In this document: in pieces, positions 8,290 to 38,237 of the stretch
How positions within the stretch are numbered: the first letter of the stretch is position 1
Layout: the number at the start of each line of letters is the position of its first letter
From: Acidobacteriota bacterium
GTDB taxonomy: Bacteria; Acidobacteriota; Vicinamibacteria; Vicinamibacterales; UBA2999
Direction of reading: 5' to 3'
Assembly (NCBI GenBank): GCA_021730945.1
Contig: JAKFYH010000015.1
Coordinates: 1 to 45,516 of the forward strand
Length of the DNA stretch: 45,516 nucleotides
Made by a program: the position numbers and the translations under genes
Notes under the pieces: generated by a model
What the model was told of the DNA's origin: nothing
What the model saw: only the letters and a program-made list of their open reading frames with translations
The model's database searches: none

Positions 8290-9330
8290 TTACTTCTTGA
8301 GGCGCTTGTCCCGGAAGTACTGCACCTGCCAGGTAAACACGTTCTTGTTGTGCTCCGCCAGCGTTGACGAGAAGACATGTGTGCCGTCGTTGCGGCTGAC
8401 GAAATAGAGATAGTTGACCGCGGCAGGTCTCACCACGGCCTCGAGCGAGGCGCGGCCAGGCGCGGCGATCGGGCCCGGCGGCAATCCCGCGTAGCGATAG
8501 GTGTTGTAGGGCGAGTCGAACCGCAGGTCTTCCTTCGACAGGTTGCCGTCGTACCGCCCCGCTTTCTGCAACGCATAGATCACGGTGGGATCGGCCTGCA
8601 TCCCCATCTTGATCTTCATCCGATTGCGATAGACGGCGGCCACCAATGGTCGCTCGTGGCCGGCCGCGGTCTCCTTTTCGACCAGCGACGCGAGCGTCGT
8701 GACCTGGCGAACGTTCAGGCCTTCGGCCGCCGCCGCCAATCGCAGGTCTTCACCAAAGGCCGTCTTGAAGCCGGCCACCATCTGGCGCACCACTTCCGCC
8801 GCCGGTGTGTGGCGAGGCAGCGCGTAGGTCTCCGGGAACAGGTAGCCCTCGAGATCGCGCGCGGCGGGATCGAGATCGGCAATCAGGGCGGCGTCTTGTG
8901 CCGCGGCCGCAAAGTCCGCAGCGGCCCCGAAGCCCCTGGCCTCGAACACCTGCGCCATCTCGGTGATGGTCAGGCCTTCGCGAAACGTGAGCAGCCGCTT
9001 GTAGACATCGCCGCGCGCGATCTTGTCGACCACCGCCAGGGGGGTCATCGGCGCGTCAAAGCGGTACTCGCCGGCTTTCAACTCGCGGGCGCGTCCGCTC
9101 CATTGCACCGCGAGGCGAAAGGTCCAGGCGTCAGCCACCACGCCCGCGTCGACCAGTCGAGCACCAATGCCGATGGGGCCGGTGCCGGCCGGAATCTCGA
9201 CGAACGTCTCATCCGCAGTCGCGCCGCGATACGGGGTCTGCACCCGGCCGTAGACCCACCAGGCACCACCGCCGGCCACGGCCGCCAGCACCACCAGCAG
9301 AATCGCCATTCGTCCGATCCAGCGCATCAT
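8290..9330 (-). CDS. mltG: Endolytic murein transglycosylase MltG (YceG-like)
   Basis: This 346-residue inner-membrane lytic transglycosylase cleaves nascent glycan strands and is thought to set chain length. One N-terminal membrane helix (residues 8-28) is followed by a LysM-like part and the YceG catalytic domain. Visible motifs are LEGYLFPETY, ASLVEKET with the catalytic Glu at about 218, MGMQADPTVIYAL and YNTYRYAGLPPGPIAAPG, ending in FSSTLAEHNKNV. The start is the ATG at 9330; a second ATG lies one codon in. It lies 3 bases downstream of ruvX, and the ruvX-mltG pair is widespread. Confidence 0.95.
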   Translation of the reverse strand: MMRWIGRMAILLVVLAAVAGGGAWWVYGRVQTPYRGATADETFVEIPAGTGPIGIGARLVDAGVVADAWTFRLAVQWSGRARELKAGEYRFDAPMTPLAVVDKIARGDVYKRLLTFREGLTITEMAQVFEARGFGAAADFAAAAQDAALIADLDPAARDLEGYLFPETYALPRHTPAAEVVRQMVAGFKTAFGEDLRLAAAAEGLNVRQVTTLASLVEKETAAGHERPLVAAVYRNRMKIKMGMQADPTVIYALQKAGRYDGNLSKEDLRFDSPYNTYRYAGLPPGPIAAPGRASLEAVVRPAAVNYLYFVSRNDGTHVFSSTLAEHNKNVFTWQVQYFRDKRLKK

Positions 9331-9333
9331 GAT

Positions 9334-9783
9334 CTAGAGGTCGCCGGCGGCGGCGCGAGGCCGGCCATCGAGGTAGTCCTGCAAGATGATCGCCGCGGCG
9401 GCGGCATCGAGCTTGGCCTTGCGCTTGCGCCAGTCCTTCTCGTCCAGGGCCAGGCGCGATTCCGCTTCGACACTCGACAGGCGCTCGTCCTGCAGGACCA
9501 CCGGCACGGTCACCTTCGACTCGAGCGCGCGCGCGAAGGTCTCCACGATGGGCGTCTGTTGATTGGGCGAACCGTCGAGCCGGCGGGGCCACCCGACCAC
9601 CACCGCCTCCAGCCCATCATCGTCCTGAATCAAGGCCGCGACCTCGGCCACAACCAGGCGAAGTGTCTCGGCATCGGAGGGGGGGCGTTGCAGCAAGCGC
9701 CAGGGCGAGGCCAGTGTGGCGGTAGCGTCGCTCAGCGCCAGGCCAATGCGACGCGCGCCGTAGTCGATGCCCAGGACACGCAC
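9334..9783 (-). CDS. ruvX: Holliday junction resolvase-like RNase H-fold protein (YqgF)
   Basis: This 149-residue RNase H-fold protein is a putative Holliday junction resolvase also tied to 5'-end processing of pre-16S rRNA. The first acidic motif is VLGIDYGARRIGLALSD. VVGWPRRLDGS and VVLQDERLSSVEAE carry the other conserved residues. The C-terminal KLDAAAAAIILQDYL segment is also typical. It starts with ATG 25 bases from the divergent EnvC-like gene and precedes mltG with a 3-base gap. Confidence 0.93.
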   Translation of the reverse strand: MRVLGIDYGARRIGLALSDATATLASPWRLLQRPPSDAETLRLVVAEVAALIQDDDGLEAVVVGWPRRLDGSPNQQTPIVETFARALESKVTVPVVLQDERLSSVEAESRLALDEKDWRKRKAKLDAAAAAIILQDYLDGRPRAAAGDL

Positions 9784-9807: not shown

Positions 9808-10959
9808 ATGGGTCTAGGGTGCTGGGGTGCTGGGGTGCTGAGGTCCTTGGGTGCGATGGTGCTTGCGACTGGCGTCGTCGCGCTGGCCGCGCAATCGCCC
9901 GCCGACGAGGCACGGGCGCGGGCCGCGGCGCGGATCAAGACGCTGCAGATCGAAGCCGATCGCCTGGCCGCGCAGGCGCGCACCGTGTTTGGCGACCTGC
10001 GCCGGCTCGAAGTGCAGCGCGAGATTTCCCGACAGCAGTTCGCCCAGGCCCAGGCCGAGGTGGTGCGCGTCACCGCGGCACGCGATCAGGCGGCGGCCCG
10101 CTTGAAGACGCTCGAGGCCACGCGCGTGGCGCAGACCCCCGGCATCACCGAGCGGCTGGTTGAGCTCTCCAAGCGCGGACGAGGCGGCTATCTCCAGTTG
10201 CTGCTCGCCAGCGACGACATCCGCGATGTCGGCCGCCTCAGCCGCGGCGTGGCCGCCGTGGCCGAGCTCGATCGCGTCAGGCTCGACACCCATCGCCGCA
10301 CCCTGGCCAGTGAACGCGAGGCGCTGGCGGCGGTCAACCGCGAACGCGAGGCGGTGACCGCGTCGGAAATGGAAGCCCGGCGGGCGCGGACCGCCCTCGA
10401 CGCCGCGGTCGCGGCCCGCAATCGCCTGATCGACAACCTCGATCAGCAACGCGACCTGGCAGCGCAGTACGTCAGCGAGCTGCAGGCGGCCCAGAGGCAG
10501 ATCGAACGCACGATCGCCACCGCCGGCCCGGCGGCGGGGGCCGTCCCGCTGCCGATCCGCCCCTTCCGCGGCGACCTGGCCTGGCCGGTGACCGGCCCGC
10601 TCGTCTCCGGCTTCGGCCGGGCCCCCGCCGGCCGTTTTGGTACCGCCGTCGTCCGAAACGGTATCGAGGTGGGCGCGGCCGAGGGGACGCCGGCCCGGGC
10701 GGTGCACGAAGGCACGGTGGCCTTCGCCGCGCCATTCACGGGTTTCGGCCAGTTGGTGATCGTCGACCACGGCCACGAAGCCTTCACGCTATATGGCCAC
10801 CTGTCGGAGGTCACGGTGACCACCGGCACCCCCGTGAAGGCCGGCGATGTGGTCGGCCAGGTCGGGCTGGCGCCGGCGGGCGAAGCGGCGCTGTACTTCG
10901 AAGTGCGCATCGACGGCCGCCCGGTCGATCCCGTACAATGGCTCAGGAGATCACGATGA
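9808..10959 (+). CDS. EnvC-like periplasmic protein, coiled coil plus degenerate LytM (M23) domain
   Basis: This exported protein of up to 383 residues has a long coiled coil (about residues 35-230) and a C-terminal LytM/peptidase M23 domain. The zinc ligands are not kept: the usual HxGID motif reads RNGIEV, and the final HLHFE is LYFEV, although DHG and YGHL remain. Non-catalytic LytM proteins such as EnvC activate cell-wall amidases at the septum, so that is the likely role. The start is uncertain. ATG 9808 gives a signal-like N-terminus but passes through a GGTGCTGG tandem repeat; ATG 9856 is the alternative. The stop overlaps the next gene (ATGA), matching the common envC-ctpA order. Confidence 0.88.
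   Translation: MGLGCWGAGVLRSLGAMVLATGVVALAAQSPADEARARAAARIKTLQIEADRLAAQARTVFGDLRRLEVQREISRQQFAQAQAEVVRVTAARDQAAARLKTLEATRVAQTPGITERLVELSKRGRGGYLQLLLASDDIRDVGRLSRGVAAVAELDRVRLDTHRRTLASEREALAAVNREREAVTASEMEARRARTALDAAVAARNRLIDNLDQQRDLAAQYVSELQAAQRQIERTIATAGPAAGAVPLPIRPFRGDLAWPVTGPLVSGFGRAPAGRFGTAVVRNGIEVGAAEGTPARAVHEGTVAFAAPFTGFGQLVIVDHGHEAFTLYGHLSEVTVTTGTPVKAGDVVGQVGLAPAGEAALYFEVRIDGRPVDPVQWLRRSR
9818..9841 (+). repeat. Three tandem copies of an 8-base unit
   Basis: GGTGCTGG, GGTGCTGG and GGTGCTGA follow each other directly at or near the start of the EnvC-like gene. They would encode part of its signal-like N-terminus if ATG 9808 is used. Confidence 0.8.
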
Positions 10960-12125
10960 AGATTCGCGGCCGGGTTCTCGTGCTGGCGGTGTCGGTGCCA
11001 GTGATCGCATTTGCCGTCGTCGGCGGCCTGCTGGGCAACAGCGCGCTGGCTCGCGAAGACAGCTATCAGTATCTCCGCATCTTCGAGGATGTCGTCTCGC
11101 TCATCGCCAATAACTATGTCGAGGAGGTCAACCTCGACAAGGTGATGCACGGCGCCATGCACGGCCTGGCCGATGGCCTCGACGCCGACAGCGCCTACCT
11201 GGATGTCGCGCAAGTCAAGGTGCTCGACAAGGGTGATGCCGGCGGCTCCGCGCAGACCGGGCTCGAGATCACTCGGCAGTATTACCTCCGCGTGATCGCC
11301 GCGCGCGACGGCTCGCCCGCCGCGCGCGCCGGTCTGCTGCCCGGCGACTACATCCGCGCCATCGACGGCCAGTCGACTCGCGACACCACGGTGTACGAGG
11401 GGCAGCGCCTGCTGCGCGGCAAGGCCGGCACCAAGGTGCGCCTCACCGTGCTTCGTGGCAACGCCGCCGAGCCGCACGACATCGAGCTGGCGCGCGAAGA
11501 TCTGGCGGCGGCCGCGGTCAAATCCAGGATGGCGGCTCCGGGTGTCGGCTACCTTCGCATCGCCGAATTCACCAAGACCACGCCTGACCAGATGAAGGCG
11601 GAAGTGGCGTCGCTCACCAAGGCCGGCGCGACCCAGGTCGTGGTCGACCTGCGCGGAACCGCGTTCGGCGATACCGATGCCGGACTGGCGGCGGCTCGCC
11701 TGTTCGTCAAGACCGGCGTCCTGGCCTACCGCCAGGACCGCGGCAAGGACAAGGAAGCGGTGTCGGCCGCAACTGGCGACGGCGGCATTGCCCTGACGAC
11801 GGCGGTCTTGACTGACGCCGGGACGTCGGGCGCCGCGGAAGTGTTCGCCGCCGCCCTGGCGGGGAACAAGCGGGCGACGCTGGTCGGCGAACGCACATTT
11901 GGACGGGCCGCGCGGCAGAAGCTGGTGCGATTGCCCGACGGCAGCGCCTTGATGCTGACGCACCTCATCTACCTCACGCCGGCGAGTGTGGCGATCCACG
12001 AGAAGGGCCTCGTCCCCGACGTGGCGGTTGACCAGCCCGACCTGGAGTTCGGCCAGGCACCGCCGGCCAAGGACGCCATGCTCGACAAGGCGATCGAATC
12101 GCTGACGGTCAAAGCCGCGGCCTGA
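10956..12125 (+). CDS. S41-family (CtpA-like) protein, probably catalytically dead
   Basis: This 389-residue exported protein has an N-terminal hydrophobic signal or anchor (residues 7-27), a PDZ domain (about 100-170) and an S41 tail-specific-protease fold. In active CtpA/Prc the nucleophilic Ser and the general-base Lys lie 25 residues apart, in GSASASE and TFGKG. Here the equivalent segments are GTSGAAE and TFGRAA, which puts Gly292 at the Ser position and Arg317 at the Lys position; Gln321 is kept. The substrate-site DLRNNPGG is also altered (DLRGTAFGD). I infer a pseudoprotease, perhaps a scaffold working with the EnvC-like neighbour. ATG 10956 follows AGGAG and overlaps the upstream stop; its own stop overlaps the HU start. 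Confidence 0.9.
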   Translation: MKIRGRVLVLAVSVPVIAFAVVGGLLGNSALAREDSYQYLRIFEDVVSLIANNYVEEVNLDKVMHGAMHGLADGLDADSAYLDVAQVKVLDKGDAGGSAQTGLEITRQYYLRVIAARDGSPAARAGLLPGDYIRAIDGQSTRDTTVYEGQRLLRGKAGTKVRLTVLRGNAAEPHDIELAREDLAAAAVKSRMAAPGVGYLRIAEFTKTTPDQMKAEVASLTKAGATQVVVDLRGTAFGDTDAGLAAARLFVKTGVLAYRQDRGKDKEAVSAATGDGGIALTTAVLTDAGTSGAAEVFAAALAGNKRATLVGERTFGRAARQKLVRLPDGSALMLTHLIYLTPASVAIHEKGLVPDVAVDQPDLEFGQAPPAKDAMLDKAIESLTVKAAA

Positions 12126-12397
12126 TGAACAAGCAGGACCTGATCGGCAAAATCGTCAAGGACACGGGCGCGACCAAAGCCCAGGCCTCGCGCATCGTGG
12201 CCGTCTTCCTCTCGACGGTGACCAAGGCGCTGAAGAAGGGCGATGCCGTCACATTTGTCGGCTTCGGCACCTTCAAGACCGCCGTTCGCAAGGCCCGCAA
12301 GGGTCGCAATCCCCTCACCGGCGCCGCCCTTCGCATCCCCAAACGAAAGGCTGTGCGCTTCACTGCCGGCAAGGCGCTGAAAAAAGCCGTCAACTGA
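12125..12397 (+). CDS. HU/IHF-family DNA-binding protein
   Basis: This 90-residue histone-like protein binds and bends DNA as a dimer. The family signature FVGFGTFKTAVRKARKGRNP lies at residues 44-63, with the DNA-arm residues RNPLTG following and a C-terminal helix KAVRFTAGKALKKAV. The length is the family norm. It overlaps the S41 gene by one base (TGATG), so it may be co-translated, although a house promoter inside the S41 gene cannot be excluded. Confidence 0.96.
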   Translation: MNKQDLIGKIVKDTGATKAQASRIVAVFLSTVTKALKKGDAVTFVGFGTFKTAVRKARKGRNPLTGAALRIPKRKAVRFTAGKALKKAVN

Positions 12398-12479: not shown

Positions 12480-12556
12480 AGGCGCGTAGCTCAGTTGGTT
12501 AGAGCGCCTCCCTGACACGGAGGAGGTCGATAGTTCGAATCTATTCGCGCCTACCA
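12480..12556 (+). tRNA. tRNA-Val (anticodon GAC)
   Basis: All four arms can be folded. The acceptor AGGCGCG pairs with CGCGCCT before an A discriminator and an encoded CCA. The D arm is GCTC/GAGC, the anticodon stem CCTCC/GGAGG holds loop CTGACAC with anticodon GAC, and the T loop is TTCGAAT. Length is 77 bases. It stands alone upstream of thrS. Confidence 0.97.
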
Positions 12557-37885: not shown

Positions 37886-38237
37886 GGGGGCGATCTGGCT
37901 TCGACGGGGGTGCGGGATCGCGGAACGCGTGCCGAGGCCCATGCACCTCGTAAATCCCGTGGAAAAACAACGTAACTGCGAACGCAGACTACGCTCTCGC
38001 TGCTTAATACCAGCGAGCGATCAACTTGAGAGCGCCTACGGCTCGGGATTGATCGTCATTTAAGTAGGCTGGCCGCCACGTTCCGTCCTGAGGCGTGGTG
38101 GCGAGACACATCGGGAATGGCGGCCGGGGCACTTGGCTCCGTTTCTAACCGGCTGCGACACGAGAATGGAGACACGCACGTAGTGATCTGCGACGACGTG
38201 TTCTCGGACGCGGGTTCAACTCCCGCCGCCTCCACCA
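37886..38237 (+). ncRNA. ssrA: tmRNA
   Basis: tmRNA with SmpB rescues stalled ribosomes. The acceptor 5' end GGGGGCG pairs with CGCCTCC before ACCA, followed by the diagnostic CTGGCTTCGACGGGG, and the T arm GGGTTCAACTCCC is near the 3' end. The tag frame begins GCG at 37978 and ends TAA at 38005, giving the tag ANADYALAA, with the expected YALAA end. Pseudoknot segments such as GAGACACATCGGGAATGG lie after the tag. An integrase gene begins 88 bases downstream, so the 3' end is the likely attachment site. Confidence 0.97.

Follow-up and report, generated by a model that had tools for sequence, protein, structure and literature searches.

An S41 protein encoded beside envC in Acidobacteriota lacks the catalytic dyad and is very probably a conserved pseudoprotease

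Introduction

Can a carboxyl-terminal processing protease (CTP) be kept in a bacterial lineage after its catalytic residues are gone, and what would it then do? The question is raised by a stretch of 45,516 nucleotides from an Acidobacteriota genome of the class Vicinamibacteria (contig JAKFYH010000015.1, assembly GCA_021730945.1; the whole stretch is called the window here), in which the end of an EnvC-like gene is joined by a 4-bp overlap, ATGA, to the start of a gene for an S41-family protein of the CtpA type. A sequence-only reading had called this S41 protein a pseudoprotease and had placed it, with its EnvC-like neighbour, in an amidase-control complex at the septum. We find that the S41 protein lacks the catalytic dyad, as do most of its homologues analysed here, and that it is almost certainly a conserved pseudoprotease, whose retention in genomes without EnvC and FtsX does not bear out the septal complex as its conserved role. 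The usual view of CTPs is that of proteases which hold cell-wall hydrolases in check; if bacteria retain a dead CTP next to a live one, even after loss of EnvC and FtsX, the CTP/PDZ body would have an envelope role apart from proteolysis.

Results

The S41 open reading frame (389 residues) starts at an ATG (10956) that overlaps the envC stop codon (10957–10959), with AGGAG six bases 5′ of it by eye; a second in-frame ATG at 10938 would give 395 residues. The protein matches Pfam Peptidase_S41 (7e-34) and PDZ_6 and has the CtpA/CtpB/D1P fold with a PDZ domain that is typical of S41A proteases, scoring 201 bits against the NCBIfam prc subfamily model TIGR00225, below its cut-off of 218.6 bits. 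Both alignment to Pseudomonas aeruginosa CtpA (PaCtpA) and multiple alignments place Gly292 at the Ser nucleophile and Arg317 at the Lys base 25 residues on, with Gln321 kept, exactly as the sequence-only reading had put them; the S41A dyad of Ser and Lys 25 residues apart is thus missing. The NPGG motif, which carries the P1 glycine, reads TAFG, so that PaCtpA G246, the first Gly of the motif, corresponds to Phe237, and in the same alignment PaCtpA His84 corresponds to Asp78. In a study of PaCtpA (PMC11021448), activity is lost with S302A and with K327A; the effect of Q331A is minor with one substrate and clearer with a second, that of H84A is moderate, and G246M cuts activity almost as much as S302A, perhaps via a blocked P1 site. 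Judged by these mutant effects, the window protein is without two essential residues and keeps one that is non-essential, and from its sequence, proteolysis by the known CTP mechanism should be impossible for it. Positions that are fixed in active proteins and changed here (71, 100, 236, 237, 284, 291, 292, 296, 299, 317 and 320) fall mostly in active-site segments.

To place the window protein among its relatives, residues were counted in 76 class-level proteins (the window included; a 77th, L023, is truncated and was left out) and in 40 matches from other classes of the phylum. The latter are the better-scoring part of 220 matches among 395 phylum genomes (rows with coordinates) and hence not a random sample, and the loci L103–L182, the best 80 of 465 relatives in a further scan, were kept out of the counts, since the pattern used for that scan already included the Gly motif. 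The dyad is absent in 76/76 class-level and 38/40 other-class proteins. Among these 114 dead proteins, the Ser position holds Gly in 96, Ser in 5, Asn and Cys in 4 each, Arg and Gln in 2 each and Ala in 1, the Lys position never holds Lys, and Gln persists as the third residue in 105. Of the 114, 22 have the first Gly of NPGG, compared with 29/29 rows with an intact dyad, among them two rows of family f40, two from other S41 types and a gene counted twice. Outside the class, family codes place dead S41 proteins in at least 32 families, and annotation pipelines are expected to call these proteins, misleadingly, S41 family peptidases. A literature query combining S41 with pseudoenzyme gave no CTP case by title among the matches listed. 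Eight S41 proteins from plasmid records (8 of 72 matching records) all keep Ser-Lys-Gln (S-K-Q). Six loci titled Cyanobacteria, Acidimicrobiia, Bifidobacterium breve or Woeseiaceae (L106, L107, L139, L142, L167 and L177) carry S41 proteins at 47–83% identity and are probably mislabelled metagenome-assembled genomes (MAGs).

Dead S41 genes are under purifying selection. Ratios of nonsynonymous to synonymous substitution (dN/dS; Nei–Gojobori) were 0.077–0.245 in 14 pairs, four of which come from EnvC-less genomes (0.09–0.25); dS is rough, because synonymous differences amount to 0.20–0.52 per site. For comparison, the intact CtpA of the same genus gave 0.107 (one pair) and EnvC 0.203–0.299 (three pairs). 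Within the class set the PDZ domain is better conserved (0.684) than the S41 core (0.598), the reverse of the order in intact paralogues (core 0.687, PDZ 0.611). In the N-terminal hydrophobic segment, Ser13 is conserved in 92% and Gly23 in 100% of the class set (97% and 87% of the other-class set), which exceeds the need of a simple signal peptide and points to a membrane anchor that packs against a partner.

The AlphaFold2 model of the protein (63 sequences; predicted local distance difference test score (pLDDT) 86, predicted template-modelling score 0.82; residues 1–39 of low confidence) retains the N-terminal domain and the C-terminal helix. Its best structural match is Helicobacter pylori CtpA (Z 38.0, root-mean-square deviation (rmsd) 3.3, 340 residues aligned), followed by PaCtpA (8sxe, Z 36.5), D1P and CtpB (Z about 35) and, more distantly, IRBP (7jti, Z 18.9). 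The kept PDZ domain, N-terminal domain and hydrophobic helix point to binding rather than cutting.

In a first tree (104 rows, without active f40 proteins), 79 dead rows lie on one side of a single branch (Shimodaira–Hasegawa-like approximate likelihood-ratio test 99). A second tree of 97 rows, with active f40 proteins added and the active-site columns removed, joins the EnvC-linked and dead lineage in one group (78 rows, support 100/99), with the CtpA paralogues separate (100/99) and eight outgroup rows apart.

An intact CtpA accompanies the dead protein in most genomes of the class. All of 16 genomes searched with Pfam S41 had two or more S41 matches, and 15 had a long CtpA-type paralogue, each with S-K-Q intact; the remaining genome (G089) is 86% complete. 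One possibility, which we hold to be improbable, is that the dead S41 regulates the intact CtpA as a pseudo-subunit or decoy, joining its oligomers or competing for its adaptors or substrates and thereby tuning proteolysis. The paralogue is found in 146/152 class genomes, with the dyad intact in the 16 genes read; PaCtpA forms dimers and hexamers (PMC11021448), and an N-terminal domain and a C-terminal helix are retained in the dead protein. However, co-occurrence is uninformative because both proteins are near-universal in the class, the two genes lie on different contigs in the window's own genome (the intact copy on C31), and mixed oligomers become less likely because the paralogues are only 27–33% identical to the dead S41.

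The protein encoded upstream has a coiled coil and a LytM fold without zinc ligands, as expected of EnvC. We use the wording EnvC-like in the strict sense because its score against the NCBIfam EnvC equivalog PRK11637, the best of 14 models listed, is 85.3 bits and the cut-off 270 bits. At the M23 ligand sites it has Asn, Glu and Ala-x-Tyr for His-x-His, with the His of YGHL retained; in an alignment of 120 rows (some genomes present twice) the first position is Asn in 85, Glu replaces Asp in 97, the last His has become Tyr in 112, and the YGHL His persists in 46, including the row of the window. The structure model (pLDDT 90) matches Vibrio cholerae EnvC in the FtsEX complex (8tzl, Z 24.0) and the LytM domain of Escherichia coli EnvC (4bh5, Z 22.7, rmsd 1.6 over 129 residues). 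A degenerate, ligand-free LytM domain is the usual state of EnvC as an amidase activator. The sequence-only reading's pair of degenerate hydrolases thus overstates the case: the ligand residues are indeed missing, but this is no second surprise, since it is EnvC's known state.

Is the dead S41, then, an accessory of EnvC and FtsEX that controls septal amidases structurally or allosterically, as that reading had proposed? The translational overlap with envC in the window favours this, as do the detection of EnvC, in some cases as remnants, upstream of S41 in 57/76 class loci, the S41 gene beside EnvC in 25/30 loci of other classes (30 EnvC loci read; EnvC found in 46/50 further genomes), and Amidase_3 in 10/10 genomes from several classes; in these ten, too, FtsX and EnvC are present or absent together (both in five, neither in five). 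The distribution of the two partners across 152 class genomes (EnvC searched with profile A4 at E up to 1e-40, FtsX via its extracellular domain) points the other way. EnvC was detected in 99 and the FtsX domain in 100 genomes, both in 95, neither in 48, EnvC only in 4 and FtsX only in 5 (Fisher p 6e-29, not corrected for relatedness); four of the five FtsX-only genomes have no S41 match either, which points to a gap in the assembly at this place. The dead S41 passes the threshold in 94/95 genomes with both EnvC and FtsX and still in 40/48 with neither; five of the eight misses belong to family f18, whose S41 lies near the threshold (G058 passes a looser limit). Survival of the gene where both are missing means that EnvC is not its sole partner.

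The genomes that lack the pair are spread over several distinct groups, namely the window's own genus (G002), g24 (G038), g28 (G069), g34 (G077), f12, parts of f13, f14 and f15, and f18, so that EnvC and FtsX were probably lost several separate times, if family codes and mostly draft genomes are sound; the EnvC status of G004, where the EnvC end lies at a contig edge, is ambiguous. Within the same genus, at L104 (3843–3986, G002), envC residues 53–79 are fused in frame to residues 357–378 by an 831-bp deletion (residues 80–356), directly before an intact S41 gene whose product is 87% identical to the window's (one MAG assembly), and the genome has no FtsX match. An obligate EnvC–amidase complex is not supported, because the dead S41 persists without EnvC and FtsX, there with the low dN/dS given above, and beside a deleted envC. 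We consider an EnvC/FtsEX accessory role as improbable as a CtpA pseudo-subunit, although the protein may act together with EnvC where EnvC exists. The absences among close relatives, also within one genus, are natural knock-outs for finding the role of the dead S41.

Of the 25 EnvC-linked S41 proteins from other classes, four are S-K-Q (all from f40), 20 are without Ser or Lys, and one (L297), whose alignment is incomplete, has Gly at the Ser position; four of the 25 (G180, G196, G351 and G369) come from genomes already in the 40-protein set. The S-K-Q loci of f40 are L266, L267, L282 and L286, and the same family holds relatives with G-K-Q and G-R-Q.

The features of the locus are collected in Table 1. 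A survey of 77 loci (flanks of 1.5–2.5 kb, one query per gene) found RuvX beside 34, MltG beside 30, EnvC beside 27, ThrS beside 26 and HU beside 18; in the 50 loci without detected EnvC, RuvX was found in 27 and MltG in 24. The mltG gene precedes S41 in L088, on the same strand. In the f18 loci L070–L073, whose S41 proteins have Cys at the Ser, Arg at the Lys and Pro at the Gln position, it lies directly downstream of S41 on the same strand. Inside the envC 3′ end of the window (10910–10939) there is a promoter-like match, TCGACG-18-TACAAT (1 found, 0.2 expected), which by eye also occurs in L104; for P. aeruginosa ctpA, a promoter within envC is reported (PMC12569750). Further downstream, tRNA-Val(gac) occupies 12480–12556 between the HU-type gene and thrS, and a transfer-messenger RNA gene with the tag ANADYALAA lies at 37886–38237.

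Table 1. Positions in the window of the S41 gene, its notable residues and the adjoining genes
Feature	Position	Strand	Basis or remark
MltG, endolytic transglycosylase, divergent neighbour, candidate partner	8290..9330	-	TIGR00247, 222.5 bits (cut-off 103.4)
RuvX/YqgF, divergent neighbour	9334..9783	-	TIGR00250, 90.4 bits (cut-off 43.25)
EnvC, coiled coil and degenerate LytM/M23 domain	9808..10959	+	Profiles, structure model; start assumed at ATG 9808
Pseudo-S41, CtpA-type fold without catalytic dyad, 389 residues	10956..12125	+	Pfam, alignments, structure model
N-terminal hydrophobic segment, about residues 7–27, probable membrane anchor	10974..11036	+	Ser13/Gly23 conservation, from which anchoring is inferred
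PDZ domain, residues 98–185, best conserved domain in the class set	11247..11510	+	Pfam, structure, conservation
Phe237, at the first Gly of NPGG in active enzymes (PaCtpA G246)	11664..11666	+	Alignment
Gly292 (codon GGC), catalytic Ser position	11829..11831	+	Alignment
Arg317 (codon CGG), catalytic Lys position	11904..11906	+	Alignment
Gln321, third residue, retained	11916..11918	+	Alignment
HU/IHF-type DNA-binding protein, start overlaps the S41 stop by one base	12125..12397	+	HU-beta model, 82 bits, below cut-off 157; neighbour in relatives

Discussion

In a pseudoprotease the catalytic residues are lost throughout a lineage in which the fold persists and selection continues, and this is what the S41 lineage of the window displays. 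The dyad is lost in every class-level protein read, while the fold is intact and purifying selection continues, the P1 site is altered, and an intact paralogue stands in the same genome; the term chosen by the sequence-only reading is thus strongly supported. That the protein might be a cryptic enzyme using other residues is very improbable: Thr290 (conserved in 93% of class and 95% of other-class proteins) and Gln321 (99% and 89%) would offer a starting point, but no Lys, His or Cys is strongly conserved in residues 226–345, the most frequent being K322 (58% and 53%) and K305 (40% and 61%), and the first Gly of NPGG is replaced in 92/114. A dyad of Ser291 with a nearby Lys, the alternative alignment named in the earlier reading, was rejected for the same lack of a strongly conserved Lys and because no more than 54% of the class set have Ser at position 291, where 71% of the other-class set have Ala. 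A decaying gene or sequencing artefact, which the loss of two catalytic residues might suggest, is refuted by open frames in more than 100 homologues and by dN/dS well below 1 in all 14 pairs.

For the function of the pseudoprotease, our leading explanation, at about even odds, is that it serves cell-wall enzymes as an adaptor or scaffold without cutting them. It would derive from the same envC–ctpA operon that carries active CtpA in Pseudomonadota; the operon S41 would have died catalytically in nearly all phylum lineages read, with a second CtpA of intact dyad remaining. Anchored in the inner membrane, the dead S41 could hold C-terminal tails or partner proteins with its PDZ and N-terminal domains and in this way control a cell-wall enzyme without proteolysis, and its conserved job would be independent of EnvC and FtsX. 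The favoured candidate partner is MltG, followed by the intact CtpA paralogue. MltG is the best candidate because of synteny, including its position as same-strand neighbour in two lineages, but that it is the partner is doubtful all the same.

Several observations weigh against this picture. The other-class dead set has no domain that stands out (PDZ 0.511, core 0.530, N-terminal domain 0.539), so that the shift of conservation towards PDZ applies to the class only, and a PDZ-loop Gly fixed in active enzymes is lost at position 100, which may change how C-terminal tails are bound in the classical manner. At E 1e-42, 175/395 phylum genomes gave no match, so that some members may lack the protein, and no S41 was seen in 5 of the 30 EnvC loci of other classes. 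The ruvX–mltG synteny may be neutral or passive, and 23/50 EnvC-less loci have no RuvX detected within the short flanks with one query per gene. Finally, four S-K-Q proteins of f40 (G186, G196, G369 and G468) nest inside the dead clade, where their neighbours are G-K-Q (G389), G-R-Q (G351) and G-K-R (G215, f51).

The f40 proteins bear on how the catalytic residues were lost. A single-origin loss, with 74 dead rows held together, was rejected (approximately unbiased test, p 5e-14). Allowing return in a two-state model improves the fit over loss alone (-lnL 11.8 vs 21.9), and parsimony on the 97-row tree counts 2 changes with return and about nine parallel losses without it. Despite the better fit, either regain or parallel loss may lie behind the pattern, since the f40 Ser codons (TCN) are two steps in either direction from the Gly codons (GGN) of their nearest relatives. 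An ancient, phylum-wide pseudoprotease that arose by catalytic death of an envC-linked CtpA, became independent of FtsEX–EnvC and re-acquired Ser-Lys-Gln in f40 is a fuller account that we put forward tentatively and think rather unlikely in all its parts; the intact triad of f40 makes loss versus regain testable.

Known systems resemble the locus in part. IRBP (retinol-binding protein 3) shares an S41-like fold with the window protein (7jti) and is likewise a non-protease. It differs as a eukaryotic retinoid carrier that is distant and has no EnvC link. The EnvC proteins of E. coli and V. cholerae, like the upstream gene product, have a coiled coil and a LytM domain without zinc ligands and co-occur with FtsX, whereas the upstream protein falls below the NCBIfam EnvC equivalog cut-off and amidase activation by it is putative. 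In Sinorhizobium meliloti and Ruegeria an EnvC (or M23) gene directly precedes the S41 gene, as in the window; unlike the window protein, these S41 proteins keep S-K-Q, and in S. meliloti a polysaccharide deacetylase gene then follows. A further parallel in gene order and fold is the envC–ctpA–PA5135 operon of P. aeruginosa, in which envC is likewise followed by the S41 gene (PMC12569750). Its CtpA has the same fold as the window protein (8sxe, Z 36.5), but it carries S302, K327 and G246, where the window protein has Gly, Arg and Phe, and together with LbcA it degrades endopeptidases.

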